From contig NC_015673.1 in NCBI RefSeq assembly GCF_000177535.2, positions 434,001 through 498,000 of the forward strand: a stretch of DNA of 64,000 nucleotides, written 5' to 3'. The DNA is from Corynebacterium resistens DSM 45100 (GTDB lineage Bacteria; Actinomycetota; Actinomycetes; Mycobacteriales; Mycobacteriaceae). Positions 5,111 through 46,616 of the stretch are shown piece after piece. Made by a program: the position numbers and the translations under genes. How positions within the stretch are numbered: the first letter of the stretch is position 1; the number at the start of each line of letters is the position of its first letter. The notes beneath the pieces were generated by a model, which saw nothing but the letters and a program-made list of their open reading frames with translations, made no database searches and was not told where the DNA came from.

Positions 5111-8100
5111 TTATGGGGTCAGGCCGTGAATGTAACCGAAGCGGTGCTCGGTGGTGGAGACAGCCTGCTCCAGCAACAGTGGCAGCAGCTCGCGGCGGCC
5201 ATCTGGCAGCACGTCCTGATCCAGGATCACGGAACCGGACTGTGCGGCAGCCTCGTATAGGGAGTCTGGCGCCACGCCCAGGGAACGTACGCGAACGGAC
5301 TGCGTGGTTTCGATTTCTTCTGCGAAGTCATCGTCGGATGCCACACGCATACCCATGCCCAGCTCGCCCCAAGAGGAAGCAACCTCGTGGGTAGCGGTGA
5401 TATCCAGCTCGGTGCCGGTGGCTGCCGAGGCTAGCTTCAGGCGCAGCAGGTCGCGTGGATTCGCACCTGGGTTAACGCGGACGCGCAGAGGCTCCAACAG
5501 CGGCTTGTAGCGGAACACATTGGACTCTACGACCAGCGCGGTGTTGTCGTGCTCGACACCAAACTCGGTCGCCATTGCGTGGGCGTCGGACTCAGCAGCA
5601 CGGCGTAGCCAGAAGTGATCCTGCTTGTCTAGGGCGGGGGAGCCCAGGCCACGGATCTCGCGCAGAAGCTGCGTGATGTGCGTTGGCAAGGTGCCAGGAA
5701 CCAGCTGGCTGATATCGCCCTCGGACCATACACCCTGCTGGGCGACGTAGTTGGGTCCACCGGCCTTGGCGCCGGAGCCCAAGGAGGAGTTCTTCCAACC
5801 ACCGAATGGCTGGCGCTGGACGATTGCGCCGGTGATGCCACGCTCAACGTAAGCGTTACCGACCTCAACGCGCTCGCGCCAGTAAGCGGTCTCCTCGACA
5901 TCGATGGTGTGGATACCACCGGTCAGGCCGAAGCCCGTGGAATTCTGCCACTCAATAGCTTGATCCAGGGTCTCGGCGTGCATGATGCCGGCAACTGGGC
6001 CGAAGCACTCGTGGGTGTGGAACCAGCTGCCAGGCTGTACGTTGTCACGCAAGCCTGGGCTCCACAGCGTGCCTTCCTCGTTTAGCTTCTCTGGCTTGAC
6101 CAGCCATTTTTCGCCCTTATCCAGCTGGGTCAGGCCACGCAGCAGCTTGTCTCCAGGAGGCTCGATGATGCCGTTCATGTAGGTGGAGATGTCGTAGCCA
6201 GGGCCGACCTTCATGGAACGAACCGCATCGACCAGCTGGCCGATGAATCGCTTGGATTCGCCGATGGAACCCACAGTGATGATCAGCGAAGCAGCGGAAC
6301 ACTTCTGACCAGCGTGGCCGTAAGCGGACTTGAAGATGTCGGCCACAGCCAAGTCGGGGTCGGCCGCTGGGGTCACGATGAGGGCGTTCTTACCACTGGT
6401 CTCCGCATTGATCACCATGCGTGGCTTCCAGCTGCGGAACAACTTGGCGGTCTCGGATGCGCCGGTCAGGATCACGGAGTCTACATCTGGGTGGGAGATC
6501 AGGCGCTTACCAGCATCGGCCTCATCGGCGTTAACCAGCTGTACCAAGTCCTCAGTGATGCCAGCCTCACGGATGATCTCCATGAAGACCTCAGCAATGC
6601 GCAGCACCTGCGGTGCAGGCTTGATGATTACGCAGGCACCCGCTGCCAGGGAAGCGAAGATACCGCCCAGTGGAATAGCGATCGGGAAGTTCCACGGTGG
6701 GGTCACTACAACCGTCTTGTACGGGGTAAACACGGAGCCACGGACCTGATCCAGCTCTCGAGCGGACTCTGCGTAGTAGCGAGCGAAGTCGATAGCCTCG
6801 GAAACCTCTGGGTCGGTCTCTCCGACGGTCTTGCCTGCCTCGAATACAGCTGCGGAGATCAGCTTAGAGCGGTTGTTAGCCAGTGCGTCGGCTGCACGAT
6901 CCAGCAGCTCAGCGCGCTCATGACCGGTCTTCTTGGACCATTCCTCAGCGGACTTCCGGCAACGTGCGACAGCCTCGTCGACAACAGCTGGGTCGGTAAC
7001 GGAGGGAGTCTGTGCCGGGCCAGGGTTGGACTCTGGCGCCACGATGCGCGCAGCCCACTCACGGTTGGCTGGCAGCACTGGGTCCGTGTCTGGCTCGTTG
7101 ACGAAGTTGCCAGGTGTGGAATCACTGCGGCAGCCGAGCTTCTGCTCTTCTTCTTCCAGGCGGTTTTGGGTGCGACGCCGCCCGGCGAACGTCTTCCAAC
7201 GATCCTGAACGGAGTGGCGGAAACGCAGTTCCTGAGCCTGCATCGGGGTGTTGCCGTTCTCATCGGACTCGTCGTCCTCTGGAGTGAACAGTGCGTAGAG
7301 GAAGTTTTGCTTAGCGCCGTTTTCCTCCAGTCGGCGCACCAAGTAGCTGATGGCGACGTCAAAGTCTTCAGCCTTAACCACTGGCGTGTAAAGGATCAAG
7401 CCACCAACAACGTCTCGAACAGCTTCTGCCTGGCCAGGAGCCATACCCTGCAGCATCTCGACATCAAGCTGATCTTCGACATTGCGGACTACAGATAGCT
7501 CGTGAGCTAGCGCCACGTGGTACAGGTTGTGGGAAGCGACACCGATGCGAATGGCGTCGGCATTCTCTGGCTGCAGTGCGTAGTCCATCAAGCGAACGTA
7601 GTTGGCGTCCACCTCGGCCTTAGTCAGGTAAGGCGCCTGTGGCCAATCGTGGATTTCGGAGTCCACGCGCTCCATGGAGAGGTTGGCACCCTTAACCAAG
7701 CGAACCTTGATCTTGCCGCCACCCTTAGCGCGGCGCTGCTTGGCGTATTCGGTCAGCTTGACCAGAGCATCGAAGGTATCAGGCAGGTAAGCCTGCAATA
7801 CGATGCCAGTCTCCAGCTCAAGGAATTCTTCCTCATCCATCAGCTCGGTGAAGAGCTTGATGGTGAGGTCCAGGTCCTTGTATTCCTCCATGTCCATGTT
7901 GATGAAGGGGTGTGGCTGGCGCTTCATGGCCTGACGGTACAGCGGGCGCAGGCGTTCCTTGAGGCGCTCTGTGCTGCCTTCGAGATCCCAGTGGTTCAGC
8001 TGGGATACGACGGAGGAGGCCTTCACGGAGACATAGTCCACACGTGGGTTCTTGAGTAGCTCAACGATGGCGTCGAGACGCTTTTGAGCCTCGGCTTCAC

Positions 8101-14354: not shown

Positions 14355-14729
14355 GGGGTCGATTTGGTTTCGACTTCGTGCATTGAGCCAGGGGAAGCGT
14401 GCCGGTGCAGGTAGGAGACCACCGTTAAGCGTCGCTACAACTCTATAAGCGCCGAGAACACTCAGCGCGACTACGCCCTCGCTGCCTAATTACAGCGACC
14501 GCGTGTCTGTCAGCCCGGGGATGTCCCTGACCCGGTAGCTGGCATCGACTTAAGGGACTTGCTGCATCGCCTCGTTGCTCGGGCAATGCGGGACTTCTAG
14601 AGCAACTGGGCCCGTCATCCAGACCTGTTCGTGGGATCTGGAGGGTCGAGCAGAGATAAGGCACGAACTGCGCACGGAGAAGCCCTGGCAAGGTCGCGAA
14701 GGACCCGGGTTCAATTCCCGGCGGCTCCA
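14355..14729 (+). ncRNA. ssrA: Transfer-messenger RNA
   Basis: The 5' end GGGGTCG pairs with CGGCTCC at 14722-14728 to make the tRNA-like acceptor stem; A14729 is the discriminator and CCA is not encoded. The T-arm is CCGGGTTCAATTCCCGG. The resume frame at 14451-14489 reads AENTQRDYALAA then TAA, close to known corynebacterial tags ending YALAA. It rescues stalled ribosomes with SmpB. The 3' end is a classic integration target, and its last 24 nt are found again at 26955-26978. Confidence 0.96.
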
Positions 14730-14737
14730 CAGATAGC

Positions 14738-32635: not shown

Positions 32636-33460
32636 GTGAGTCAGCAGATTAAGGCGCCGAATAGCCGAGGTGGAAGCGGTTTTGTTTGGGTAGTCGTCGC
32701 GATTCTCGCGATCGCCGCTGTCGTTATTGGGCTATTCGTGTGGAAGCAGAGCACCAAGAACAATATTGCCGAAGAAATGCCTCAACAAGACGTGAATTTC
32801 ACGGTATCGGCTAAAGACGGTGCGATCGAGTTGGCTTCCGACAAACTGAAGAAGGATGCGCCGACGGTTGAAGTATTTTCCGATTTCTCCTGCCCTCACT
32901 GCTCTGACTTGGTGAAGGCCGACCATGAGGACATGCACAAGGCGTTGACCGACGGCGACGTCAAGGTTGTGTTCCGCTTCCTTAACATTCTGGATCAAAA
33001 GCCAGGTGGTTCCTCCACCCGCGGTGGTGCGGTTGCCTACGCAATTGCTAAGACTGGCAACGCAAAGGCGTTCTGGAATATGCATGACAAGATGTACTTG
33101 GATCAGGCAGAGGTCGCCCGTACTTGGGGATGGGAGGAATTAGGCAAGGCAGCTGAGGCGTATGACATCGATCCTGGCTTGGTCGAGAAGATCAAGAAGG
33201 GCGAGGTGCAAAACGAGGACTCTTCCATGTTCGATAAGAACTCGAAGATCCTCACTGACCGCGGTCAGCAAGTCTCCACACCGCAGGTATTCGCCAACGG
33301 CAAGGCCTATGAATTAAAGCCAGACGGTCAAGGCGGCATCAAGTCGTGGGTTCCTGACCTTGTATGGAACAAGGACAAAACTGCTCAGAACAAGACCGCG
33401 CAGGACAAAACTGCTCAGGACAAGGGCGAGGATAAAAGCAAGGGAACTAACACGAAGTAG
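32636..33460 (+). CDS. Membrane-anchored DsbA-like thiol-disulfide oxidoreductase
   Basis: 274 residues: a short cytosolic tail, one membrane helix (about 16-36), then an extracellular thioredoxin fold of the DsbA type with CPHC at 86-89 and the cis-Pro loop STPQVFANG. The C-terminus carries a short repeat (DKTAQNKTAQDKTAQDK). Starts at GTG 32636 after AAAGGA. Such proteins introduce disulfides into secreted proteins; the VKOR at 58453 could reoxidise it. The related MdbA in C. diphtheriae folds pilins, but which paralogue this is cannot be said. Confidence 0.85.
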   Translation: MSQQIKAPNSRGGSGFVWVVVAILAIAAVVIGLFVWKQSTKNNIAEEMPQQDVNFTVSAKDGAIELASDKLKKDAPTVEVFSDFSCPHCSDLVKADHEDMHKALTDGDVKVVFRFLNILDQKPGGSSTRGGAVAYAIAKTGNAKAFWNMHDKMYLDQAEVARTWGWEELGKAAEAYDIDPGLVEKIKKGEVQNEDSSMFDKNSKILTDRGQQVSTPQVFANGKAYELKPDGQGGIKSWVPDLVWNKDKTAQNKTAQDKTAQDKGEDKSKGTNTK

Positions 33461-33650: not shown

Positions 33651-33723
33651 GGGGCTATGGCGCAGCTGGTAGCGCACCACACTGGCAGTGTGGGGGTCAC
33701 GGGTTCGAGTCCCGTTAGCTCCA
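33651..33723 (+). tRNA. tRNA-Ala (GGC)
   Basis: A 73-nt cloverleaf. Acceptor GGGGCTA pairs with TAGCTCC, anticodon GGC at 33684-33686 inside the loop CTGGCAG, T-loop TTCGAGT. CCA is not encoded. Confidence 0.95.
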
Positions 33724-33731
33724 CAGAGACT

Positions 33732-33906: not shown

Positions 33907-34443
33907 TTAGGGCATTTCGGAGAGTATCTCCCGCAGTTCCTTTTTTGCCCGGTGCAACCGCACCTTGGTTGCTGATACGGAGGATTTTTGGTGTACCGCA
34001 ATTTCCTGAATCTTGAGGCCCGCCACCGACCATAAAACCAGAGCCTCTTGCGACTTCTCTGGGATTTTCTTTAGTGCCTGGGAAACGCGATCATTTTCCA
34101 CGACAGAAGATTCAAATTGAGCAGAGAAATCTTCCAGTTGAATTTCATGACCGAACGAATCGTCGTCCACGGAAACGGTAGCTTTGCGGGATCGAACTAA
34201 TTCCAGCGACGCATTAGAAGCAATCCGGTAAAACCAAGTGGAAAAGGTGGAGGAGCCCCGGAATTTTTCGAGGTTCTTCCACGCTAGCGCCAATGCTGAT
34301 TGCAATGCATCTTCGGCATCGTGGTAGTTGCCACAAATGCGCAGACAAACGTTCCACGCGCGAACCCTGCAATCCTCACATAGGGAGGCGAAAGCGCGCT
34401 GATCACCGCTACGCGCGGCTTCCAGTAGCGCCTTTTCGTCCAT
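33907..34443 (-). CDS. ECF-type RNA polymerase sigma factor
   Basis: 178 residues. Region 2 (about 10-75) includes YHDAEDALQSALALAWKN and FSTWFYRIASNASLELVR; region 4 (about 115-165) includes IPEKSQEALVLWSVAGLKIQEIA and SVSATKVRLHRAKKEL. No anti-sigma factor is adjacent. It is the last leftward gene of the envelope cluster, 142 bp beyond the acidic protein gene. Four promoters in this cluster share an ECF-type pattern, so it probably drives them; this link is inferred. Confidence 0.9.
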   Translation of the reverse strand: MDEKALLEAARSGDQRAFASLCEDCRVRAWNVCLRICGNYHDAEDALQSALALAWKNLEKFRGSSTFSTWFYRIASNASLELVRSRKATVSVDDDSFGHEIQLEDFSAQFESSVVENDRVSQALKKIPEKSQEALVLWSVAGLKIQEIAVHQKSSVSATKVRLHRAKKELREILSEMP

Positions 34444-34585: not shown

Positions 34586-35029
34586 TTAAAACTCGCCGGG
34601 CGAGAACCCGTCGTCGGGGAAGTCCAAGAGTTCGAATTCTTCGTCGCCCGCAGAATGCCCCAAAGGATCGTTGGCGCTGGCATCGCCGCCGAAGTGAGAA
34701 CCTCCAGTGGGGAGGCTGTCGGCGTCATTATTTGAAAAGCTGCCGGAGCCCGAGGTTTCGTTGGAGGTATCGCTAGCGGAATCGGGGGAGTCTACCAAAA
34801 CACCGCCATCTTCGGGGTCCACCTCGTTATCACTGCCATCGATGTCGTCGCCGGCAGCCGGCCCATAATCAGTGCCATCGTCGGTAGTGGTGGGGTCGTC
34901 AGTCTGATCTGGTACGACCTCATCGTTGCTCACGAAGGATTCACCAGACAGAGCCCGTGTCATCAATGCATCCCATATATGACCTGGCAGATCGACGAGC
35001 TCTATCTCGGGTTCGAACTCAGGTTCCAT
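34586..35029 (-). CDS. Small acidic protein of the envelope cluster, unknown function
   Basis: 147 residues, rich in Asp/Glu/Ser, almost without basic residues. The N-terminus (EIELVDLPGHIWDALMTRALSG) may form a helix; the rest looks disordered, ending DDGFSPGEF. No signal peptide. It lies 47 bp downstream of the calcium-repeat protein gene and probably shares its transcript. Not a family I recognise; low complexity makes homology hard to judge. Confidence 0.65.
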   Translation of the reverse strand: MEPEFEPEIELVDLPGHIWDALMTRALSGESFVSNDEVVPDQTDDPTTTDDGTDYGPAAGDDIDGSDNEVDPEDGGVLVDSPDSASDTSNETSGSGSFSNNDADSLPTGGSHFGGDASANDPLGHSAGDEEFELLDFPDDGFSPGEF

Positions 35030-35076: not shown

Positions 35077-35817
35077 TCAGTAGCCATCAGAGTCATGCAT
35101 AGTGCTTGGATCGGAGGCTGGGTCATCGGGCAGAGCATCTTCTTGCGGGGTATCACCCTGGGTTGAGGGATCCCCTGAAGTATCGCCCGCCCGGTAATGA
35201 ATATGATCGGTGAAGTTCGACATTTCTCCGAGGGAACCGCCAACCTCGCCCGCGGTGACTTCGGTTTCTAGAATGCCATCACCGTTATCTGCATCGGTCT
35301 TAGCGATATCGAAAGAGCCGTCGCCGTCAGTATCGATGTAGGCCGAATTAGGTACACCGTCCTGATCCGAGTCGACGATAGCGGTATCGAAGGCACCATC
35401 GTGATCGCTATCGATCAACTGGGTATCGGTCTTCCCGTCCCCATCGGAGTCAATTCGGGTTTCGGTGACCTTCCCATTTTCCAACGTGTCTTGCTGAATG
35501 GTTGCTCCGGATTTGGTGTCCACCACCTTGGCCGTGTCCATTTCTCCATCCTTGTCTTTATCTTGCTGGACAAGATTGGTTTTTTCGTCGAGTGCTTTGA
35601 CTGTGGTTTCTAAAATGCCGTCGCCATCAGTATCGATCTCGGTGAGAACGATCTCCCCTTGATCGTCGAGATGGTGGGTTTGAGTTTGCCCGTCACGGGT
35701 TTGGACATCGATAACATCGTCTCGGCCATCGTTATCCACATCGCGTGGTGAGTAGTATTTGTAGTCTTCAGGGTTGAGCCCCGAGTTGTTCACTGGGGCT
35801 TTGTTCTCGCCGCTCAT
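35077..35817 (-). CDS. Protein with eight DxDxDG calcium-type repeats
   Basis: 246 residues. Between residues 26 and 183 there are eight copies of an Asp-rich loop (DVDNDGRDD, DTDGDGILE, DKDKDGEMD, DSDGDGKTD, DSDHDGAFD, DSDQDGVPN, DTDGDGSFD, DADNGDGILE), spaced roughly 12-35 residues, like thrombospondin type 3 or dockerin-type calcium loops. The C-terminal 60 residues are acidic and disordered. There is no signal peptide or membrane helix, which is unusual for such repeats, normally found outside the cell. The upstream ECF-type promoter lies at 35876-35903. GGGAGGAAA precedes the ATG. Confidence 0.8.
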   Translation of the reverse strand: MSGENKAPVNNSGLNPEDYKYYSPRDVDNDGRDDVIDVQTRDGQTQTHHLDDQGEIVLTEIDTDGDGILETTVKALDEKTNLVQQDKDKDGEMDTAKVVDTKSGATIQQDTLENGKVTETRIDSDGDGKTDTQLIDSDHDGAFDTAIVDSDQDGVPNSAYIDTDGDGSFDIAKTDADNGDGILETEVTAGEVGGSLGEMSNFTDHIHYRAGDTSGDPSTQGDTPQEDALPDDPASDPSTMHDSDGY

Positions 35818-35875
35818 GATTTTCCTCCCAAGAGGGGTGTAGTGAATAGATTGGTTCTGGCAGGGACAATTGTTT

Positions 35876-35903
35876 GACGGCTGGAGCTGCTGGAATGGTT
35901 ACA
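35876..35903 (-). promoter_or_regulatory. ECF-type promoter P1 (calcium-repeat protein gene)
   Basis: Read on the minus strand: TGTAAC (35903-35898), 18 bp, CGTCAAA from 35879. The start codon is about 60 bp further on. Shares -35, spacing and -10 pattern with three other promoters in the cluster. Confidence 0.65.
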
Positions 35904-35950
35904 GCCTGTGAACCTAGCGGGGCAGTAGTTGGGGGCAGCTTATGGATTGA

Positions 35951-37849
35951 CTACACCAAACCGGCGTACTCAAGGAGCTTCTTCGCAGCCTTGGCATCCT
36001 TCACACCGAAAACTTGAATGTAAATCTGATCGTCAATATTTACGTATTCGGCCTGGAACCTCTCTCCGCCGTCATTTCGTACGCCATATGCTTGAGGCTT
36101 GCCGTTTTCGAACGACGCCTCCTCGTACTGATTGATCCGGTCGCGAATGAAAGCACGCTTGCTCTTGGCTTCACTCTCTGAAACGGAGATATTCAGGTAG
36201 GGATAGGAACCAGTCGGGCTGACATCGAAGAACTTCGCCGCATCGTCATTCTCCTTATCAATGTCGCATCGTGCGCTCTCGCTATTGCTTGAAATACCGC
36301 TGCTGCACTTTGAAACCAGCCCCTTTAGTTTCTCCGGGAGTTTGGCAATAGCGCGGTCCCGACCGCTGGTTGCGGATTCCGTGCTTGTGGCAGGCTCGGT
36401 TGAGCTGGCGGATTCCGATTGGCTCAGATTCTGGGACGGCCGGCTGGATCCGCCGGCGTTGACAGTTTCTTCACCGTTTTTACCGAAGACGGCGATGCCT
36501 CCTCCCACTAAAGCGAGAACTGCAACACCGGCGATTGCGAACATCGGCCATTTCTTTTTGGATGACGAATCCGCATCGAACTGCGATTGCGCTACAGAAC
36601 TGGCGCCATAAGGTGATTGAGGGGCTTGCCCGCCCATCTGTTGTGGAGCTGCAGAAGTAGCGGGGTTGGGTCCGCCTTGGAAAGGGTTTGCGCCATAAGC
36701 GTTTGTTGCCGGTGCTTGTGTTGGGGCAGGACCGAAGCCCGTATTTTGCGTGGTGATGTTGCTGATCACGGGCATTACCGCACTTAGAGCGCCCTGCACC
36801 ACCACCGTCTTAGGGTTATCGAGTGTTGCAACCGGGCCGAGGGTTTTGAGGGCCTCTTGGACGGTGGGGATACGGGAAGAACCGCCCGTGAGGTAGAGAG
36901 CTTTAATTCCGTCAGGGCTATTGACCCCTGCTTCCTGAAGAGTCGACCTAGTAAGGTTCACCGCCTTATTGATATGGGGAGCGATGATCGATTCCAGCTC
37001 TTCCCGAGTGATTTGAATGCGGTGGTTCTCGCCAGCAGCTTGGAAGTTGATTGTCGCCGTAGCAGCCTCACTGAGCAGTTCCTTAGCCCGGCGAATTGCA
37101 TCTTCCATGGCGTGGCGTTCGGAAATCGGCGCGGATTGGCGAAGGTAGGAGGCCAGCTCAGGATCTTGTTCCTCAAGCTGGGAATCTACCCAGCGGCGAA
37201 CTAAAGCATCGAAAGTTTTGCCGCCAAGGTTGTTATCGCCACGGGCAGCGATCACAGAAAACGAGCCGCCACTTTGCGCCTCCAGAACTGCAATGTCCAA
37301 CGTGCCGCCACCGAAATCGAAAACGGCAATCTTATCGCCGGGTTTCAGCTGCTCTGCCTGCGAGTAATAATGTGCAGCGGCTTGGGGCTCTGAGATCGTC
37401 TTGATCTTGTCCATCGATAGCCCCAAGTCCGAGGCCGCTTCGAGGAGGACATTAATTTCCTCTTCCGACCATGCCTCGGGGTGGGTTAGCACCAACTCTT
37501 GAGGAGGAACTCCACCGTGTTCGCGGCTGGCGCGATCTACCACGCTTTTTAGAACTGCCGCGATTGGCATCGAACTGGGTACATCGCAGCCATTGATGTG
37601 GAACACGTGCTGCGGAACCAAACGTTTGGGGGAGGAGATGAAGCCAGCTGGGTTGCTTACCGCTCGGTTAAAGGCGACCTCACCCACCTCAATCGTTTTT
37701 TCATCTTCGAGGAAAACAGAAGATGTCATCGTCGATTGACTGTGGCTCAGGTTCACCACCTCAACATTGCCCTTGACTGGGTTAGTGTGGGCAGCAGCGG
37801 TGTTGGAAGTACCGAAGTCGATACCGAGGGTCCACGCTTTGTTATCCAT
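35951..37849 (-). CDS. Membrane-tethered Hsp70-like protein
   Basis: 632 residues. Residues 1-365 are an Hsp70/DnaK ATPase domain: IDFGTSNT (phosphate 1), VFDFGGGTLD (phosphate 2), TGGSSRIP (adenosine). The usual substrate-binding domain is absent. Instead come a Pro/Gln/Asn-rich linker (370-430), a membrane helix (about 434-456, flanked by KKK), a Ser/Thr-rich extracellular stalk (465-497) and a 130-residue outer domain with two cysteines (515, 528). ATP use inside could therefore be coupled to a domain outside. It follows the peptidase gene by 57 bp with AGGAG before the ATG, so both probably share promoter P2. Function unproven. Confidence 0.85.
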   Translation of the reverse strand: MDNKAWTLGIDFGTSNTAAAHTNPVKGNVEVVNLSHSQSTMTSSVFLEDEKTIEVGEVAFNRAVSNPAGFISSPKRLVPQHVFHINGCDVPSSMPIAAVLKSVVDRASREHGGVPPQELVLTHPEAWSEEEINVLLEAASDLGLSMDKIKTISEPQAAAHYYSQAEQLKPGDKIAVFDFGGGTLDIAVLEAQSGGSFSVIAARGDNNLGGKTFDALVRRWVDSQLEEQDPELASYLRQSAPISERHAMEDAIRRAKELLSEAATATINFQAAGENHRIQITREELESIIAPHINKAVNLTRSTLQEAGVNSPDGIKALYLTGGSSRIPTVQEALKTLGPVATLDNPKTVVVQGALSAVMPVISNITTQNTGFGPAPTQAPATNAYGANPFQGGPNPATSAAPQQMGGQAPQSPYGASSVAQSQFDADSSSKKKWPMFAIAGVAVLALVGGGIAVFGKNGEETVNAGGSSRPSQNLSQSESASSTEPATSTESATSGRDRAIAKLPEKLKGLVSKCSSGISSNSESARCDIDKENDDAAKFFDVSPTGSYPYLNISVSESEAKSKRAFIRDRINQYEEASFENGKPQAYGVRNDGGERFQAEYVNIDDQIYIQVFGVKDAKAAKKLLEYAGLV

Positions 37850-37906
37850 CTCTTACTCCTAAACTCTTAGTCTCGTTGTGGTTGGCGCATCGAAATCCGG
37901 ATGCTC

Positions 37907-39463
37907 TTAAACCTTGTCGCGACCAGTTGCGTTAACAATTGTGTAGTCGCCACCCTTAGGCTGCAGGTTCGGATCCTTGAGCTCATCGCTGACACCATTC
38001 GTGGAGATCATCGAGTAGTCAGAATCCTGCCACGCGTTTTGGAAGGTCTTTAAGTCCACTTTTACGGCATTACCGTCCGGTAATCCTGGATCCGCGAGTG
38101 TCACGGTTCCGGTATTCGTATCAATTTCGGTCACCACAAGGAAGTGGTTGGGCATATTGTTTGCATGGTCGGCTTGCCCTGCCTGCTCCGGGTGAAGTTG
38201 ATCCCAGATTTCGTGGGCGTCAACAAAAGCAATAACGCCTCGGCCTTCGTCCAACTTGGTGGCAAGATCACCCATTGGATCGGAAGTGTTAGCGTTCTCC
38301 GTCGTGGTTTCCACACCGTTGGCCTTCAGCAACTGAGCGAGCTGCGGCATGGTGGTTCCGTCCTCGTAGGAATTGTCAATCCCCAGGTCAAGGCCTTGTT
38401 TAACCAATGTGTTTGGGTCGAAGATATTGGCACCGAAGAATTGGTTGAGGATGAATGATGCCGAAGTCGGACCACAATACATTGTCTCGCCCTGCCAGTA
38501 CCAGTCGTCTTGCCAGGCTTGTTGATTGCCGTGAACGCCATCATCCGCGGGTTGGCTTGGTGGTTCGTGCTCAGCGGGAGGCTTGTTATGCTCTTCGGGG
38601 CGCTCGGTTGGTTCCTTGTGGTCGTCAGCGGACGGTTTTTCTTGTTCTGGTTTGTGGTCGTCAGCCGACGGTTTGTCGTGCTCTGTCTTCTGGTTCGTGT
38701 CCGTGTGCGGCTTGTGGTCGTCAGCCGACGGTTTATCGTGCTCTGCCTTCTGGTCCGTGTGCGGCTTGTGGTGTTCTGACTTGTGGTCGTCAGCAGGTGC
38801 GGCGGGGCGGTCATTTGGTGCCTGGTTCTCGTTCGACGCCGGCTCGTCGGCATCATCCAATGAAGGTTCATCGGAGGTATCCCACGACGGCTTTGCGGGA
38901 GCATTCGCCTCATCTCGTGCTGACTCGGATGGGCTAATTGAATCGTCCCACCGAGGGGCGGAGTGATCTTCGGAGTGATCCCACGCGGGCTTCGTTGGGT
39001 TCGAGTGTTCCGTGGCGGAGTCATGAAGAGCTGGTTCCATTGATCCGTTGCGACTGTCAGATTCGTCCCGTGCAGGTTTGGCGTGGTCGCCGGAATCATC
39101 CCACGCTGGGCGGTAGGGGGCTGCCGGGGAATCATTGGCTGGGGAGCTATTGGCCGGGGGTGTATGGTCCGCTGAGTCGTCCCAAGCAGGTTTGGAGGGA
39201 TCGAACGAGTCGGAGCTAGAGTCGGAAAGCTCTGGCTCAGAGGGGATCACCGGATGATTCTGTGCTGCATCCTTCGTCGAGATGCCATCTTCAGGGAGGA
39301 AAGGATCCATCATGCTGTCGTCATTCAGCGACTGGTTGAGATGGTTGTGCGTGGATGCATAATCGGGTGTTTCCGCATCCTCCACGGGAAGCTCTAGATC
39401 CGGCAACTGATCCAACAAAGAATCAAGGTCGTTCGAATCGTGGAACGTGTTCGGGTCAGACAT
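37907..39463 (-). CDS. C39-like cysteine peptidase with long acidic repeat tail
   Basis: 518 residues. Residues 1-310 are low complexity: repeats around KPAWDDSxDH (about 91-200) and EHDKPSADDHKP (about 228-285). From 315 a compact domain begins WYWQGETMYCGPTSASF, with Cys330, His440 (PNHFLVV) and Asp458 (TLADPG) in the order Gln-Cys-His-Asp of papain-like C39 peptidases, the family that trims bacteriocin leaders and some secreted proteins. No signal peptide is visible, so substrate and location are open. Upstream is ECF-type promoter P2; the membrane Hsp70 gene follows. Confidence 0.82.
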   Translation of the reverse strand: MSDPNTFHDSNDLDSLLDQLPDLELPVEDAETPDYASTHNHLNQSLNDDSMMDPFLPEDGISTKDAAQNHPVIPSEPELSDSSSDSFDPSKPAWDDSADHTPPANSSPANDSPAAPYRPAWDDSGDHAKPARDESDSRNGSMEPALHDSATEHSNPTKPAWDHSEDHSAPRWDDSISPSESARDEANAPAKPSWDTSDEPSLDDADEPASNENQAPNDRPAAPADDHKSEHHKPHTDQKAEHDKPSADDHKPHTDTNQKTEHDKPSADDHKPEQEKPSADDHKEPTERPEEHNKPPAEHEPPSQPADDGVHGNQQAWQDDWYWQGETMYCGPTSASFILNQFFGANIFDPNTLVKQGLDLGIDNSYEDGTTMPQLAQLLKANGVETTTENANTSDPMGDLATKLDEGRGVIAFVDAHEIWDQLHPEQAGQADHANNMPNHFLVVTEIDTNTGTVTLADPGLPDGNAVKVDLKTFQNAWQDSDYSMISTNGVSDELKDPNLQPKGGDYTIVNATGRDKV

Positions 39464-39591
39464 TGTGGGTTCCTTCGCAGAGTTTTTCGAAAGTGCCGGG
39501 ATCGTGACGTCGCTGGCCTAGTTGCTTATGGGGGAGGGGCATGGTCACCGGAAGTGCTTCCAAGTCCTCACGCTTTTGGGTTCACGCGTTG

Positions 39592-39619
39592 GACGGACAT
39601 GAAAGCGCAAAAGGTTACA
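39592..39619 (-). promoter_or_regulatory. ECF-type promoter P2 (C39-like peptidase and Hsp70 genes)
   Basis: Minus strand: TGTAACCTTTT from 39619, 18 bp between TGTAAC and CGTC, then CGTCCAA from 39595. The leader would be about 120 nt. Confidence 0.7.
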
Positions 39620-39682
39620 GACTTAATTTCTGTGATGCAGGTTTTACCCGGCGCTGGATAGTGCAGGTCTAACAGGGGAAGG

Positions 39683-41257
39683 CTACTTTTCTTCAGCCGC
39701 TGCACCAGCTCCAGCGGAAGGCTTGTCGGAAGTGCTATCCCCAGATTCACTGTCCTCGGGGCGCCCCGCGGGATTCGAATTTTTGTTGTCCTCCGAAGTG
39801 TCCTTCTTATTGGGATCCACGGATTCGGCGGAAGGCGGTACTGATCCTTCAGGGTTCTTCTTAGCGTTTTCGAAAATCAAGTACTGTGCTGCCATCTTCT
39901 GGGATAGCAGTTTCTTGGCATCTTCGACGGTCCGCGGGTTGAACTTGTCCTTATCCGAATCCGCTGATTTTTTATCCCCATTGGGGTCCACAGAAGAATC
40001 GACATTCGGCTTGTTAACGAATCCTTGACTGCCGAGCGCGACTTTGTCTTCGTAAACCATCACGCACTCCACGCCACCACCGGAAGGCAAGCTCATCTCA
40101 AAGCAAGATGTGTTCGGCAGCTTTTGTGGCTCGTCGTACTTAGACGCATCTTCAAGATCTACAGCAGTGGAGACATAGGCATTCTGGAAAGTCTTTGCGG
40201 ACTCTTCGCCTTGAGCTTGTGCTACTGAGGTTTGCCAGTTGCCGATGTATTCGATTCCGGAGAGATCGAAAGCCTTCATGGCTACATCGGGGCGGGTTTG
40301 TGTGCTGGCGTATCCGCGGGCTTTACGCTCACCCATGATCTGAGGTGCATTGCCACCAACAGGGGTAGTCACTGCGTAACGAAGCAGACCCCGCTTGTCG
40401 GTTGGTGTCCAGCCCTTGAGCTTGCCGAAACCGGCCTTAGTTTTGTGAGTAGGAATCGTATCGAGCAGCGGAATCTGTTTGCGCAGATAGTCGGTGGCGA
40501 TCCGCTTAGTCTTTTCGAATTCCTTCGGGCTGCCCTGCCCCCAGGTGTAGACCACGAATTCATTGTGGGTTGTGTATGTCTGCAGGCTTGCTTTTTCCTT
40601 GCGACCAGTTGATGAACCCTCGTCCTTGCCCTTAGAAGCCAAGGTGTTTGGGCGATCCTTGAAAGGAAGGTCTGTGTCCACCAATTTAGGATCGATGAGC
40701 TTTGGATCCTTGGCGATGTCCTTCTGAGAAGCGAAAACAGATCCTTGAGTGATGCTGATCTGGTGGAGTTTCTCTGCTACGGCTTTGGCAGTCTTTGCTG
40801 AATCAAAGCGGATGATCGCGCTGATGAACTGCCGATCTTTCTTCTCGTTCTCAGAGGTGTGGTAGTGACCCGACTGGATAGTAGCCTTCATGTCATCGAG
40901 GGCAGACCGGTAGTTGGTTCCCAAGAGGGTGGTGAGGTAGGAAGTGCCATAAATGTGTCGGCTGCCCCTGCTGTGGACGAGGGATGGGTCGATTTCGTAG
41001 CCCAGCAAGTTGGCATCGGCGATCACATTGCTTTCAACGGCGTTACCTCCTTCGAGAGAGGTCATGTTCTTGAAAGGCTTGCGGTATTCAGGGAAATACG
41101 GGCCGTGATCGTACTTTGGCTTTTCTGCAGCCGCCTTGCCAGCTGGTTCAGATGAAGGTGCCGGAGCCTGCGCTGGCTCGTTTTGTTTTTCAGATCCACA
41201 TGCCACCAGCAAGCAACTTGCGGCCAACGTAGCGGTTGCGATCTTGAAAGTCTTCAT
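39683..41257 (-). CDS. Lipoprotein of unknown function, first of a paralogous pair
   Basis: 524 residues with a lipoprotein signal peptide and lipobox LLVACG. The body is shared with the next gene: MTSLEGGNAVESNVIAD, LLGYEIDPSL, PTHKTKAGFGKLKGW, GLLRYAVTTPVG, PSGGGVECVMVYED and LSQKMAAQYLIFENAKKNP. The C-terminal 60 residues are acidic and disordered. I cannot name the family; proteins with a similar layout occur near iniBAC-type loci in actinobacteria as far as I recall. It has its own ECF-type promoter (P3). Confidence 0.8.
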   Translation of the reverse strand: MKTFKIATATLAASCLLVACGSEKQNEPAQAPAPSSEPAGKAAAEKPKYDHGPYFPEYRKPFKNMTSLEGGNAVESNVIADANLLGYEIDPSLVHSRGSRHIYGTSYLTTLLGTNYRSALDDMKATIQSGHYHTSENEKKDRQFISAIIRFDSAKTAKAVAEKLHQISITQGSVFASQKDIAKDPKLIDPKLVDTDLPFKDRPNTLASKGKDEGSSTGRKEKASLQTYTTHNEFVVYTWGQGSPKEFEKTKRIATDYLRKQIPLLDTIPTHKTKAGFGKLKGWTPTDKRGLLRYAVTTPVGGNAPQIMGERKARGYASTQTRPDVAMKAFDLSGIEYIGNWQTSVAQAQGEESAKTFQNAYVSTAVDLEDASKYDEPQKLPNTSCFEMSLPSGGGVECVMVYEDKVALGSQGFVNKPNVDSSVDPNGDKKSADSDKDKFNPRTVEDAKKLLSQKMAAQYLIFENAKKNPEGSVPPSAESVDPNKKDTSEDNKNSNPAGRPEDSESGDSTSDKPSAGAGAAAEEK

Positions 41258-41335
41258 GTGGGTTGCCTTTCTAAGCAGTAGGGAAGAACCTTTTGATTTG
41301 ATTCACGCCCCAAGATTTCAGCGGGCTGTTACTTG

Positions 41336-41362
41336 GATGTGAGCGAAGGCGAAAAGGTTACA
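41336..41362 (-). promoter_or_regulatory. ECF-type promoter P3 (first lipoprotein gene)
   Basis: Minus strand: TGTAACCTTTTCG from 41362, 17 bp between TGTAAC and CATC, then CATCCAAGTA from 41339. Nearly identical in both boxes to P4. Confidence 0.7.
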
Positions 41363-41403
41363 CACGACATTTTGTAAAGGAGATTTTAGAGGGGGACAGT
41401 CTT

Positions 41404-42852
41404 TTAGCGGGGCTTAACGGATTGCAGGGACGGGGGAACTGAACCCTTTGGATTCTTCTTTGCGTCCTCGAAAATTTTGTATTGTGCCGCCATCTTCTGA
41501 GAAAGAAGTTTCTGGGCAGCTTCAAGGCTTTCTGGCGCATACTTATCCTGATCCTTGTGCTCAGAATCAGACTTGGTAACAGAGGTTTCAGAACCATCCC
41601 GATCTAGAGGAAGGGAATATCCTTGTACACCTTTGGCAATCATGTCTCCGTAGACCATGACACATTCAACCCCGCCACCGGATGAGGAATCTTGCTTCAT
41701 GCATTTCGTATTTGGAAGCTGTTGGGGTTCGTCATACTTTTCGAAATCTTGGGTATCGACAGCCTTTGAGATGTATGCGTTCTGATAGGTCTTGGCAGAA
41801 TCCTCACCGGAGGCCTTTCCAATCGTGGTTTCCCAAGAGGCAACATGTTCAATGCCCGAGAGTTCCAGAATTTTCATATTCCCGTCAGGTCGCATGTGGG
41901 TACCGGCGTAAGCGCGTGCAGAATGAGTCCCTACATCTTGGGGAGCAGGCGCTCCGACTGGGGTGGTGACTGCGTAGCGCAGCAGACCATGTTTATCTGT
42001 GGGGGCCCAATTCTTTAACTTTCCATAGCCAGCAGCGGTCTTATGCGTAGGAATTGAGTCCAAAAGTGGAACTTGCTTCTTGAGGAAAGCTATGGCCTGT
42101 GCGCGGGTTTTTCCGAAAGCCTTGGGGTTTCCATTGCCACGGGTATAAATCATGAATTCGTTGTGTGTCGTGAACGTTTCCATCGCAGTGGAATCGGTGC
42201 TTTTCTCGAGGTTACGACTCTTTGCCTTTGAAGCTCGCGTGTTCGGAACCTCCTTTACCGGAACATCTTCAGCGATTCTTTCGCGGTCGAGCTTTTTAGG
42301 ATCCTTAGCGATCTCCTTGTGGTCTGAAAGCTGTGGGCCCTGGGTCACGCTGAGCTCATAAAGTTTGTTGGCCATCTTTTGAGCGGATTTCGCTGAGTCG
42401 AGCCGCACGATCGTACTGAGGAACTCTGTTTCTCTATCTTGTGATTGGGAAACGAGGTAATGGCCACCTTGAATTGGAGGATTCATTTCTTCCAAGGTGG
42501 ACATATAGTTCGAGAGTAAGAATTCTCCGAACCCGTTGTGGGTATAGACATTCGCACTCCTTCTTCCATCCTTCAATACTGGATTGAACTCGTAACCTAG
42601 AAGGTGAACATCCGCGATTACGTTGCTTTCAATAGCTTTACCACCTTCTAAGGAAGTCATGTCGCGGTAAGGCACACGATATTTAGGAAAATAGTCTCCG
42701 GTATCGTACTGCACCTGTTGGCTAGCGGCCTTGCCTGCCGGTTCCGAAGATTGGGGCATGGTTTCTGCCGGTTCATTTGACTTATCTGTGCCGCAAGCTA
42801 CAAGGGCACATCCAGCTGTGAGTACCACAGCCGCGATCTTGAGGGATTTCAT
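41404..42852 (-). CDS. Lipoprotein of unknown function, second of a paralogous pair
   Basis: 482 residues, lipobox ALVACG. Colinear with the lipoprotein gene at 39683 through nearly its whole length (MTSLEGGKAIESNVIAD, LLGYEFNPVL, PTHKTAAGYGKLKNW, GLLRYAVTTPVG, LSQKMAAQYKIFEDAKKNP), a tandem duplication that has diverged. It lacks the acidic C-terminal extension of its sister. Its own ECF-type promoter is P4. Divergent from the dynamin-like genes across 486 bp. Confidence 0.8.
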   Translation of the reverse strand: MKSLKIAAVVLTAGCALVACGTDKSNEPAETMPQSSEPAGKAASQQVQYDTGDYFPKYRVPYRDMTSLEGGKAIESNVIADVHLLGYEFNPVLKDGRRSANVYTHNGFGEFLLSNYMSTLEEMNPPIQGGHYLVSQSQDRETEFLSTIVRLDSAKSAQKMANKLYELSVTQGPQLSDHKEIAKDPKKLDRERIAEDVPVKEVPNTRASKAKSRNLEKSTDSTAMETFTTHNEFMIYTRGNGNPKAFGKTRAQAIAFLKKQVPLLDSIPTHKTAAGYGKLKNWAPTDKHGLLRYAVTTPVGAPAPQDVGTHSARAYAGTHMRPDGNMKILELSGIEHVASWETTIGKASGEDSAKTYQNAYISKAVDTQDFEKYDEPQQLPNTKCMKQDSSSGGGVECVMVYGDMIAKGVQGYSLPLDRDGSETSVTKSDSEHKDQDKYAPESLEAAQKLLSQKMAAQYKIFEDAKKNPKGSVPPSLQSVKPR

Positions 42853-42967
42853 GTGGGGCCTTTCTAGAATCTTCGAACTCTCGGGCAGCAGTGTCTATCC
42901 CGTGGAGCCAGCGCACGCACAACTAGCGGCCGAGAAAGTGAGCTGGTTCCAAGCGATCTACTACTTG

Positions 42968-42995
42968 GATGGAGAGTGAGATCGAAAAGGTTTCA
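42968..42995 (-). promoter_or_regulatory. ECF-type promoter P4 (second lipoprotein gene)
   Basis: Minus strand: TGAAACCTTTTCG from 42995, 18 bp between TGAAAC and CATC, then CATCCAAGTA from 42971. Confidence 0.68.
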
Positions 42996-43338: not shown

Positions 43339-45204
43339 ATGACTAACGGGCAAGTAGCCACGCAACGCCAGCAGGCCGAGGTGCTTTTGCAGTTCCTGAC
43401 AGAAAAAATTCTGGACAGGTACGACAAGAAAAACGTCACCTCGCTGGCCTGGAAGAAGTTTTCAGCTGATGACCAGACCCGAACAGTGGTTATCGTTGGG
43501 GAGGTTTCCCGTGGAAAGTCCGCATTGGCGAATGCGCTGGTAGGTGTCAAAAATGCATCTCCGGTAGGTGTGAACTTCACTACCGCAGTTTCGGTGGGGT
43601 TGGGCCAATCGACTGCAGAAAACCCTGAATGGGATACGGAGTTGTTTTATTCCGATCACTCAGTGCGAATCAGCCACAATGAACTCCCAAGCTATATTGA
43701 CGGTAAAACCCAGGCGCAAAAACTCAAGGAAGGCAAAGATGTTGCTACGAGAGCATTCGTGTCCCTGCCGGCGTCGCAAATGAATTGCCTCGTGATCGAT
43801 ACCCCCGGGGTAGGCGGCCTGGACCCCCAGCATGCCCAATTGGCACAAAGTTCAGCCGAGCAAGCCAGCGTGTTGGTGATGGTGTGTGATGCCTCTACGC
43901 CTATAACGGCACCAGAGATGGAGTTCATTCGTACGGCCGGGCGGCATATGGATAATGTGCTGGTAGCCGTGACAAAAATCGATAAACACCTGCCACGCTA
44001 TGAGCAGATCATGCAGGATAACGAACGCTTGCTGCAGCAACACCTCGGCCGCAAAATTGAAGTCATTGGGGTATCCAGCCTGCTGGCAGTCTACGATGAT
44101 CTGAATCTATCGCCGGCAGACATCCAAAAAGTTAGGCAGGCTTCCGGGATTGAGAACCTGCGCACCGCGATCGCCACCCGCTTTGATTCAGCCCAGAACC
44201 TTCCCGCCATAAATGGTTTGCGCGTGGCCATCGAGGGGCTGAAAGACCTGAAGGCGGAGCTACGGACGAAGTCCAAGGCAACGCAAGATGCGGAAGCGGC
44301 GCTGCCTGAACTGAATAGCCAGTTGGACAAACTGCAGAATTTGAAAAAGGAAATGGAACGCTGGGAGCAGTATCTCGCTAGGGATATCACCCATGCACGC
44401 CAAAAGGCTTTGGATAGTCTTGACGCCGACCTCGAGGCCATCAAACAGAAGTGGACAAATAGGGTCAATAAACAAGGCATGGCAGTGCTGCGAAAGTCTC
44501 CGCAGCATTACACTGCGCTTATGGAAAAGGATTTCCAGGAAGCAGTTCTGAAGGCCATAGGAATCTTCAGCTCTGATCTGGAAAACCGCATCGTCAAGCC
44601 ACGCTTTGAGTCCCCGACGACATGGGATGAGATCGCGGAAGAGATCGCAGTGGCGCTGGGTTCTAAGGAACTGCAAACCACCGAGGTAAAGAAGAAAACC
44701 GATGGCATTTTCGATCCGATGATGCTTCTGATGGGGGCATCGGGTGGCTCGATTATTGGTGCTGCGTTGGCAGGCGTGGTGTCTTTTTCCGGGCTGGGCG
44801 TGATCGCTGGTGTGGGTTGGGTGACATTCAATGTTGGTTTCCGAGCAATGCGCTCAGGAAAACAGAACCTGTTGATGTGGATTCGGGAGACTACTGGTAC
44901 GACGAAGATGTTCACCAGCCGTCTGTTGGAAGCGGCGATTGCGAACGCCCGCCCAGCTATCGTCATCCGTTACCGGGAGCAATTGCGGACTTCTATTGAG
45001 GAAACGCAACAGCAGATTCAAACGGCTAAGAATGCAGCTGCGATGGAACAGAAGACTCGGGAAGCTAATATCGCCCGGTTGAACAAGAATATTGAGATCA
45101 TTGAGAAGAACATCACACGAGGCGAGGCGCTCATCGAAGAGCTGCGAACAGACCGTGGAGGACAATCGGTGACGCCGGCGCAGCCAACGAGGGTGGAGGT
45201 GTAG
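43339..45204 (+). CDS. Dynamin-like GTPase, IniA-type
   Basis: 621 residues. G1 loop GEVSRGKS (54-61), G3 DTPGVGG, G4 TKID. After a long helical region a hydrophobic stretch (MLLMGASGGSIIGAALAG...) would insert into the membrane, and a coiled coil closes the protein. Bacterial dynamin-like proteins remodel or protect membranes; the mycobacterial IniA/IniC pair is induced by cell-wall drugs. AGGA lies 10 nt before the ATG. The second dynamin gene follows after 5 bp, so they are one operon. Confidence 0.87.
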   Translation: MTNGQVATQRQQAEVLLQFLTEKILDRYDKKNVTSLAWKKFSADDQTRTVVIVGEVSRGKSALANALVGVKNASPVGVNFTTAVSVGLGQSTAENPEWDTELFYSDHSVRISHNELPSYIDGKTQAQKLKEGKDVATRAFVSLPASQMNCLVIDTPGVGGLDPQHAQLAQSSAEQASVLVMVCDASTPITAPEMEFIRTAGRHMDNVLVAVTKIDKHLPRYEQIMQDNERLLQQHLGRKIEVIGVSSLLAVYDDLNLSPADIQKVRQASGIENLRTAIATRFDSAQNLPAINGLRVAIEGLKDLKAELRTKSKATQDAEAALPELNSQLDKLQNLKKEMERWEQYLARDITHARQKALDSLDADLEAIKQKWTNRVNKQGMAVLRKSPQHYTALMEKDFQEAVLKAIGIFSSDLENRIVKPRFESPTTWDEIAEEIAVALGSKELQTTEVKKKTDGIFDPMMLLMGASGGSIIGAALAGVVSFSGLGVIAGVGWVTFNVGFRAMRSGKQNLLMWIRETTGTTKMFTSRLLEAAIANARPAIVIRYREQLRTSIEETQQQIQTAKNAAAMEQKTREANIARLNKNIEIIEKNITRGEALIEELRTDRGGQSVTPAQPTRVEV

Positions 45205-45209
45205 CGAAC

Positions 45210-46616
45210 ATGGAAACGATGGAACGTTGCGTAAACACCGCCATCGATAATATCGCCGCTTTGAGTGGGGAACTTGGGGGAGAAGCTGAGGCCATGCGTG
45301 AGTCCCTCACAGCACCACCCCGAGTCGTGGTTGTGGGAAGGCTTAAGGCTGGTAAGTCCACGCTAGTTAACGCCTTGATAGGTGCGCCAGTTTCGGAAAC
45401 TGCGGCACTGGAAGCAACCAATGTTGTGACCGTGTTCCAGTACGGTGCTCCCGATCGTGCTGAGGCTGTGTTGAAAGATGGGTCCCGGATTCCGATCACT
45501 ACAATGCGGGGTCAAAAGACCGAACTCCCAGTGCCCGCGAACACTATCGCCTATGTGAATCGGTGGATCACCAGCTCGGCAGTGCGGGATTACTCCCTTA
45601 TTGATACGCCGGGTTTGGCGACGTTGACGGAAAGTAATGAGGGGGCTACCCGTGCCGCGTTGCTGGATGAGCAGACCCGATCGGCTTCAGTCGAAGCGGA
45701 TGCTGCAATCTTCTTATTTGATTCAGTACCGCGCCGCGATGAGGTGGACTTTCTGCATGAACTTGGCTTTACCCCTTTAAATACGTTGGGCATTTTGTCT
45801 CGGGCGGATTCGTTTGGGGAAGGCGCGCTTGGGGCTCAAGACCCTTTGGTGCATGCGGCAGGGTATTCGGGGATTCTGCAGGAGGAGTTGGCGGATTATT
45901 TGCCCACGGTCATGCCGGTGGCGGGATTGTTGGCCGAAACAGCCTTTACAGGGCGTGTTAATGAGGCGATGGCCAGGGCTCTGGCCCAGTATCAGTCAGT
46001 GGAGCTCCCTGAACTACTGACCTCTCTGGTTGCGTCTGATTCCCCGATGAAGAAGACAGCAATGCAAATAATGGGCAGCGTTGGCGAGTATGGATTCATC
46101 AAGGGCAGAGATGTTGCGCAACAAGGCGGTGCGGAATTATCGGATTGGTTGGTGGAAAAATCCAATCTGAACCTCGTGCGGGAGTACCTGCTGGAGACAT
46201 TGACTCCCTTTGCGCAGCTGCATCGTGCTGGCCGGGTGGTGAGAACGATGGAGTCCTTGGCATACAGGTATGGCGATCATCGCAATGAGATTCGATCGAT
46301 TGTTTCCCGGCTGAAGAAGGATCCGCGGATGATCTCGGTGATGCTCTTCCAAGACCTGAAGTCTCTGTTGGAAGTGGACGCACAAGACGAGCTTCTCCAA
46401 GAAGTCATCCGAATGATTAAGGGCCGCTCGTATGGGCAAAAATTGGGGTTGAGCCGATTTGCGTCTGGGTACGACATTCTAGAGGCAGTTCGCCAGCGTA
46501 AGGCGTGGCTCAGTGGATTGTCTTTGACATTCCTCAGTGCGGCTGAGGAAGCCGCGATCTTCAACCTCAATCGAATTTATGTGGAGCTGGAGAATGCAGG
46601 AGAGGCATTAACCTAG
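45210..46616 (+). CDS. Dynamin-like GTPase, IniC-type
   Basis: 468 residues with G1 loop GRLKAGKS (43-50), G3 DTPGLATL and a G4-like LSRAD. Shorter than its partner and without its long hydrophobic stretch, as IniC is relative to IniA. The pair likely acts as a heteromer at the membrane. Five bases separate it from the upstream gene. About 300 bp of promoter region follow before the pilus operon. Confidence 0.85.
   Translation: METMERCVNTAIDNIAALSGELGGEAEAMRESLTAPPRVVVVGRLKAGKSTLVNALIGAPVSETAALEATNVVTVFQYGAPDRAEAVLKDGSRIPITTMRGQKTELPVPANTIAYVNRWITSSAVRDYSLIDTPGLATLTESNEGATRAALLDEQTRSASVEADAAIFLFDSVPRRDEVDFLHELGFTPLNTLGILSRADSFGEGALGAQDPLVHAAGYSGILQEELADYLPTVMPVAGLLAETAFTGRVNEAMARALAQYQSVELPELLTSLVASDSPMKKTAMQIMGSVGEYGFIKGRDVAQQGGAELSDWLVEKSNLNLVREYLLETLTPFAQLHRAGRVVRTMESLAYRYGDHRNEIRSIVSRLKKDPRMISVMLFQDLKSLLEVDAQDELLQEVIRMIKGRSYGQKLGLSRFASGYDILEAVRQRKAWLSGLSLTFLSAAEEAAIFNLNRIYVELENAGEALT

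Follow-up and report, generated by a model that had tools for sequence, protein, structure and literature searches.

The window analysed here is a stretch of 64,000 nucleotides (nt) from Corynebacterium resistens DSM 45100 (contig NC_015673.1, positions 434,001 to 498,000). It contains a leftward cluster of genes that encode, in this order, two DUF7373 lipoproteins, a C39-like peptidase, an Hsp70-like protein, an acidic repeat protein, a small acidic protein, and an extracytoplasmic function (ECF) sigma factor. Two divergent genes for dynamin-like GTPases belong to the same module. Four promoter-like sites, P1 to P4, lie upstream of leftward genes. Very probably, they are promoters of the linked sigma factor. 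They would define a small envelope-stress regulon, the -35 element of which seems to have been switched together with residues of the recognition helix. The genes of the module are the following (amino acids, aa; window coordinates in plus-strand numbering):

33907..34443, minus strand: ECF sigma factor, 178 aa; Sigma70_r2 and Sigma70_r4_2 over the Pfam cut-off; Ala158/Val161 in the -35 recognition helix
34586..35029, minus strand: small acidic protein, 147 aa, 27% Asp+Glu; gene immediately precedes the sigma gene; candidate companion and regulator
35077..35817, minus strand: acidic protein, 246 aa, repeated D-x-D-G-D motifs; without Pfam match; homologs in many module loci
35951..37849, minus strand: Hsp70-like protein, 632 aa; ATPase part, disordered linker, C-terminal part
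37907..39463, minus strand: C39-like cysteine peptidase, 518 aa; peptidase domain behind a long acidic segment
39683..41257, minus strand: DUF7373 lipoprotein (Pfam), 524 aa; lipobox
41404..42852, minus strand: DUF7373 lipoprotein (Pfam), 482 aa; lipobox; paralog of the 39683..41257 protein
43339..45204, plus strand: dynamin-like GTPase, IniA relative; module member; no site found upstream
45210..46616, plus strand: second dynamin-like GTPase of the module (Pfam and homologs in the loci of relatives)

The four sites, read on the minus strand and scored with a matrix built from relatives, are:

35873-35903, minus strand: P1, TGTAAC-18-CGTCAAA, promoter-like; precedes the row of acidic gene, small acidic gene, and sigma gene; 24.3 bits
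39589-39619, minus strand: P2, TGTAAC-18-CGTCCAA; precedes the C39-like peptidase gene and, by read-through, the Hsp70 gene; 28.9 bits
41333-41362, minus strand: P3, TGTAAC-17-CATCCAA; precedes the second DUF7373 lipoprotein gene; 29.6 bits
42965-42995, minus strand: P4, TGAAAC-18-CATCCAA; precedes the first DUF7373 lipoprotein gene; 23.2 bits

A listing of sites from the sequence reproduced the boxes and spacings of the original prediction exactly. The ACCTTTT extension of the -35 element, reported for three of the four sites, is present in P2 to P4, and CATCCAAGTA is indeed common to P3 and P4. The -10 boxes end 55, 125, 75, and 112 nt before the start codons for P1, P2, P3, and P4, respectively. 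The sigma gene, placed at 33907 and in the same direction, was recovered at 34443-33907 on the minus strand; it is an ECF sigma gene by Pfam, and its product has regions 2 and 4 only, in agreement with the ECF group (group 4). Because P3 and P4 precede genes for paralogous lipoproteins that are 54% identical, they are not independent sites. The Hsp70 gene had been counted as a regulon member. It has no site of its own here; transcription from P2 would reach it by way of the peptidase gene, to which the coordinates leave a gap of 57 bp. Scans for terminators and sigma-70 promoters gave no informative excess.

The strict pattern occurs three times in the window, compared with 0.02 expected occurrences, and the P1-P4 pattern occurs four times in a 9-kb region, compared with a mean of 0.007 and a maximum of 1 in 300 shuffles. 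The scoring matrix was built from 18 sites of relatives and did not include any site of the window. It ranked P3, P2, P1, and P4 first to fourth on both strands of the 64 kb, and the next different site scored 11.9 bits. With the TGAAAC form of P4 included, four of the five sites in the whole genome fall inside 7.1 kb of 2.6 Mb. The extreme feature is the clustering of the sites, not their genome-wide number.

Nine proteins of the window were used in tblastn searches for the module, which was found, whole or in part, in other Corynebacterium species, in Rhodococcus, Prescottella, Williamsia, Gordonia, Dietzia, and Aldersonia, and in a metagenome bin named Mycobacterium. The module predates the genus Corynebacterium. 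Sigma factors of the window's kind (type 1, 245-324 bits; next score down 179 bits) are encoded in 13 of the 242 Corynebacterium genomes searched. Lower-scoring sigma factors in a paralogous module were termed type 2, which is a label and, according to the tree, not a clade. Five of the 13 type-1 genomes, that of the window included, contain one sigma factor of each type. The type-2 sigma gene of C. resistens lies at C1:506037, about 8 kb past the window end, in a paralogous module (G000:C1:506037-514000, L035) with an ECF sigma factor, Hsp70, two GTPases, an acidic repeat protein, and its own GGGAACC promoter. Family-wide, 73 of the 301 sampled genomes, spread over 15 of 31 genera, encode a sigma factor scoring above 199 bits; the next score down is 141 bits. 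A tree was calculated without six duplicates (L055, L056, L057, L072, L073, L074) and L081. It joined the type-1 sigma factors with that of locus L121 (98/100) and placed them among sigma factors of Rhodococcus, Prescottella, Gordonia, and Williamsia (95/96); L121 forms a long branch, and its placement is unsure.

The pattern TGTAACN17-18CRTCYAA was found in all 13 type-1 genomes, where it has 38 sites and its reversed control has 5. Of the 229 other Corynebacterium genomes, 18 contain it, with 19 sites. The latter are background, because the reversed control (about 52) exceeds them. Across the genus, the boxes are kept where the sigma type is present (Fisher 1.8e-13 for the association of motif and sigma type, although related genomes do not count as independent). 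A site precedes module genes in 12 of the 13 type-1 loci; in the 13th, L037, the contig begins inside the module, and two sites are on another contig of that genome (L168). The module contains, or directly adjoins, 28 of the 38 sites, one of them (L166) on a separate contig with the peptidase gene. Three of the ten remaining sites precede DUF7373 lipoproteins (L157, L159, L164; Pfam), of which only L157 is surely unlinked, since one long contig carries both this site and its module. The L160 site precedes a membrane protein. At three further sites, in three genomes (L156, L161, L165), the protein encoded downstream begins with a Pro/Gln-rich stretch and has one or two membrane segments. No convincing gene follows the sites at L158, L162, and L163. 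L158, an orthologous-looking extra site, was rejected, having no lipoprotein gene behind it, and so were L162 and L163, which lie in or against reading frames and are probably chance. The peptidase gene is located beyond the GTPase genes in C. meitnerae and Corynebacterium sp. MSK041, and has kept its site there (L073, L074, L167). Between species, the boxes stay while the spacers diverge. An unsupervised motif search in 69 upstream regions of type-1 loci yielded TAACCtTt-14-aTCtAA with a log-likelihood of 189.5, compared with 45.3 and 47.0 for two 2-base-block shuffles run with fewer restarts. This score was dropped as support, because codon patterns in acidic genes lifted the type-2 and other-genera sets to 174.0 and 217.4, and another run behaved alike.

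A different promoter form, GGGAACC followed by GCATCCAA at ECF spacing, was read by eye in lipoprotein upstream regions of Rhodococcus and others and then tested as a pattern. In relatives from Rhodococcus and Williamsia the form is GGGAACC/T...GCATCCAA. The GGGAACC form stands before the Hsp70, acidic, and lipoprotein genes in L058, L060, and L077, before two of these three in L065, and upstream of the sigma gene in Prescottella L066; the GGGAACT form precedes the acidic gene in Williamsia L061. Several type-2 modules of Corynebacterium have GGGAACC with other -10 ends, e.g. GCATTACAC, and the type-2 module of C. resistens itself has GGGAACC...GCATTCAA at G000:C1:512635, the sole match to GGGAACYTTN13-14GCAT in 2.6 Mb. 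A pattern search of the Gordonia loci revealed no clear site of this form, and a matrix scan of the window revealed no site of either form immediately upstream of the sigma gene, and none before the first of the divergent GTPase genes. For a held-out test, 31 loci were chosen by hand across genera from the hits of the family-wide search, of which seven were dropped as duplicates of named loci. In 12 of the remaining 24 loci the two-form pattern gave 24 sites with G and one with T, and the reversed pattern gave none.

The two promoter forms were compared with the recognition helix. In region 4.2, the type-1 sigma factors of all 13 genomes have Ala158 and Val161. Type-2 sigma factors and those of other genera have Thr with Ser or Thr; the exceptions are L121 (Ala, Gln) and the unrelated L081, and the held-out sigma factor L247 has Thr and Ala under a simple pattern. 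For the covariation counts, the pattern accepted either G or T as the second -35 base, so that sites with A at this base (P4) or A after AAC were missed; the six duplicates named above, L047, L053, and the unrelated L081 were left out. The Ala-class loci comprised 13 with T, none with G, and one without a site, and the Thr-class loci comprised 18 with G, one with T, one with both, and 16 without a site. T was found in 24 of 24 Ala-class sites and G in 32 of 34 Thr-class sites; the two Thr-class T sites read GGTAAC, not TGTAAC. The deviant Ala-class sigma factor of L121 also has T sites. Its module, in genome G159, is deviant as well, with an Ala/Gln sigma factor and two sites of the T form. 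Taken together, the covariation suggests that the sigma factor and its promoters switched their recognition code together. Because the tree joins the type-1 sigma factors and L121 among those of the other four genera, a single switch at the base of the clade would be the simplest story, presumably in the direction from Thr/Ser to Ala/Val. L121 is possibly an intermediate or a second switch.

The same two positions are known from Corynebacterium glutamicum. In the published model, Ala166 and Val169 of SigD face the T, and SigH has Thr168 and Ser171 in the same place (PMC6338062). Modelled contacts oppose Ser171 to G and valine to T, with the SigD valine numbered 171 (PMC11588781). On the single promoter shown, SigH carrying AVRVA was a poorer reader than SigH itself, a defect that was traced to the loss of Arg172 (PMC6338062). 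The type-1 sigma factors resemble this engineered sigma-H with sigma-D -35 residues (PMC6338062, PMC11588781) in the predicted shift of -35 specificity at the same two positions. However, their shift would be natural, and the Arg lost in AVRVA is kept (A-x-K-V-R) in all 13 genomes.

The original prediction had seen no anti-sigma gene next to the sigma gene. An adjacent gene of this kind is usual for ECF sigma factors, though not a requirement. The observation holds for the known families (Pfam); the acidic gene next to the sigma gene may nevertheless encode a conserved companion. In 53 aligned sigma loci, the companion was chosen as the most acidic frame with its end no more than about 400 nt upstream of the sigma gene, a rule that favours acidity, not the core. 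The companions align on a core, ~lpd..W...L..AfDP.tP..D..lVP..DD, which is followed by an acidic tail; L060 is one of the relatives in which the core is clear. When a profile of the core was applied to 2760 frames of the 24 held-out loci, 19 matches with E <1e-3 were obtained, 18 of which, in 18 loci, lie within 400 bp of the sigma gene (13 upstream and four downstream on the same strand, one downstream on the other strand). In L240, L242, L245, and L252 the companion is encoded downstream of the sigma gene, not upstream. At E up to 1, the profile matched none of the 117 frames that flank seven other sigma genes in the C. resistens genome. That the pairing of sigma factor and companion survives a change of gene order suggests function.

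The core is weak in the clade to which the window belongs, and to call the companion invariant would be too strong. A profile without the 13 type-1 rows found the right neighbour at E <1e-3 in three of the 13 type-1 loci, and profiles leaving out each locus or its near copies found it in seven; L113 was at 5.9e-3 and L115 at 0.39, and the neighbours of the window, L114, L116, and L117 were not found. Among 88 frames of the window, the protein at 34586-35029 was not matched by a profile of the other 52 cores, and as a single query it matched only itself and one near copy. Its assignment is based on its position, strand, size, and acidity, and on a resemblance seen by eye (LPGHIWDALMTRAL...VVPDQ). 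It lacks a Pfam match as well as any predicted membrane segment. We regard it as a candidate regulator that might hold the sigma factor in check; alternatively, it could activate the sigma factor or be no more than a product of the module.

Its lipoboxes and a membrane segment give the module the look of an envelope system. In the Hsp70-like protein, a single membrane segment (434-452) is predicted, inside the disordered linker. Past this segment, the C-terminal part (about 495-630) contains the conserved Cys515 and Cys528 and folds separately in the predicted model (mean predicted local distance difference test score, pLDDT, 69.9). A thioredoxin/DsbA-like gene, named by eye from its sequence, is located nearby at 32636-33460. 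No solved structure was matched by the sequences of the DUF7373 lipoproteins; a predicted model has a mean pLDDT of 77.6. The best solved relative of the first GTPase is IniA (6j72, E 5.9e-20), over profile positions 45-258, that is, the GTPase part only. The window also contains a transfer-messenger RNA gene (14355-14730) and a tRNA-Ala gene (33651-33724).

The promoter shape had been likened to that of SigX/SigM, and a general likeness stands. Bacillus sigma factors of the SigX/SigM/SigW type share the ECF architecture and have a -35 element of the AAC type. However, the window's sigma factor reaches only about half or less of the curated cut-offs of the SigW, SigM, and SigX models (105.1/209, 93.2/190, and 72.8/194 bits, respectively). 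A closer match is the actinobacterial family predicted to read GGGAACC...CATCCAA. The mycobacterial iniBAC operon, which responds to ethambutol and isoniazid (PMC5760070), likewise encodes two dynamin-like GTPases (IniA/IniC). It is driven by IniR, and a sigma factor is not mentioned in the available text (PMC5760070), whereas the window combines the GTPases with an ECF sigma factor, an Hsp70-like protein, DUF7373 lipoproteins, and a peptidase. ECF groups with a soluble or no anti-sigma factor (PMC8999054) share the lack of a known-family anti-sigma neighbour; the words Hsp70, dynamin, and acidic are absent from the available text of that survey. Among the matches listed in literature searches, which left most subscription papers outside their coverage, there was no paper on this module.

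The original prediction of one sigma factor controlling one regulon is supported by the co-occurrence of motif and sigma factor, by relocated and unlinked members that keep the site, and by the covariation of -35 base and helix residues; direct control by the linked sigma factor is very probable. In the proposed mechanism, an envelope defect would free or activate the sigma factor, which would then bind and transcribe from P1 to P4 and raise the lipoproteins, the membrane-anchored Hsp70-like protein, the C39-like peptidase, and the acidic proteins. It would probably also raise itself via the gene row behind P1, in a positive feedback. No site was found before the first GTPase gene; expression of the GTPase pair may be constitutive. 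The usual promoter of the sigma family would be GGGAACC...GCATCCAA; in the window's clade, Thr/Ser would have become Ala/Val and the target -35 TGTAACC, so that the -35 element of the regulon would differ from that of its GGGAACC paralog in the same cell.

Several observations weigh against this interpretation. Neither TGTAACN16-20CRTCMAA (four matches, reversed control three) nor TGTAACN17-18CRTCNNA (four and four) is in excess in the whole genome. The fifth genome-wide site, TGTAAC...CGTCAAA after glnA (G000:C1:915593), lies 198 bp before the following gene for a putative lipoprotein of 204 aa:

L036 6811-7425, minus strand: glnA-linked putative lipoprotein; TGTAAC...CGTCAAA upstream, site at 7623

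This site is not kept in the four close orthologs of the gene (57-60%), all in genomes outside the type-1 list, and may be chance. Strong sites before the gene row that ends with the sigma gene were found in only four of the 13 type-1 loci (the window, L040, L041, and L113). Under the patterns used, 16 of the 36 Thr-class loci and 12 of the 24 held-out loci had no site, and the held-out genomes are partly close kin of loci used earlier. Furthermore, the SigD homolog of the same genome, named from its sequence, has the same Ala/Val pair, and the Hsp70 sites of some relatives read GTAACA, like SigD sites.

The last two points would fit a reading of P1 to P4 by SigD instead of the linked sigma factor. 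SigD governs envelope stress in Corynebacterium. The consensus of C. glutamicum SigD is -35 GTAAC(A/G) and -10 GAT (PMC6338062); SigD responds to blocked arabinogalactan or mycolic acid synthesis (PMC11175481). Its regulon has the -35 core, the Ala/Val pair, and envelope genes in common with the module, but differs in its -10 element, its anti-sigma factor RsdA, the A/G after GTAAC, and its other genes (PMC6338062, PMC11175481). The window has GTAAC in P1 to P3 and GAAAC in P4, with C as the next base in all four, and CATC or CGTC in place of GAT. In addition, paralogous modules in Corynebacterium use GGGAAC, which indicates that the promoter form follows the module's own sigma factor, and other genera have the same module layout with GGGAACC. 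We therefore consider control by SigD alone improbable. An addition to, rather than a replacement of, the linked sigma factor as main reader would be that SigD contributes an envelope-stress input via the shared -35 element. The Ala/Val pair and the GTAAC core common to both sigma factors, and the documented overlap of SigD and SigH in C. glutamicum (PMC6338062), speak for this possibility, the chief rival, which is still rather unlikely; the -10 boxes of SigD and of P1 to P4 differ. The likeness of the sites could also be a relic of gene duplication, given that P3 and P4 precede 54%-identical paralogs. However, P1 and P2 precede unrelated genes, the boxes stay where the spacers diverge, and boxes are also found at genes away from the module, making a relic extremely improbable. 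Hardly more credit can be given to a repeated operator of some DNA-binding protein. Two spaced boxes can form an operator, and no other support for this was found, whereas the 17-18 nt spacing, the place before the starts, the ECF-type -35 chemistry, and the covariation with sigma residues all argue for -35 and -10 elements of the linked ECF sigma factor.

Given the responses of SigD (PMC11175481) and of iniBAC (PMC5760070) described above, ethambutol and isoniazid would be natural first stimuli for the regulon. ECF regulons are a known kind; what would be new, if confirmed, is a natural -35 switch between paralogous regulons of one cell, together with an acidic companion. More tentatively, and with considerable doubt, the companion could be the first of a new class of soluble sigma regulators, and the module an unrecognised envelope-repair response of the Mycobacteriaceae, in which one paralogous sigma factor escaped cross-talk by a natural Thr/Ser to Ala/Val switch and rewritten target -35 elements.

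In summary, a guess made from one sequence has become a predicted regulon, the code of which, two residues and one base, can be tested. This would offer a natural answer to a published engineering problem, the conferral of sigma-D -35 specificity on sigma-H. The small acidic protein may represent a new type of sigma regulator, and the module would be the likely regulatory setting of the IniA-like dynamins of many Mycobacteriaceae, which it combines with an Hsp70-like protein, lipoproteins, and a peptidase.

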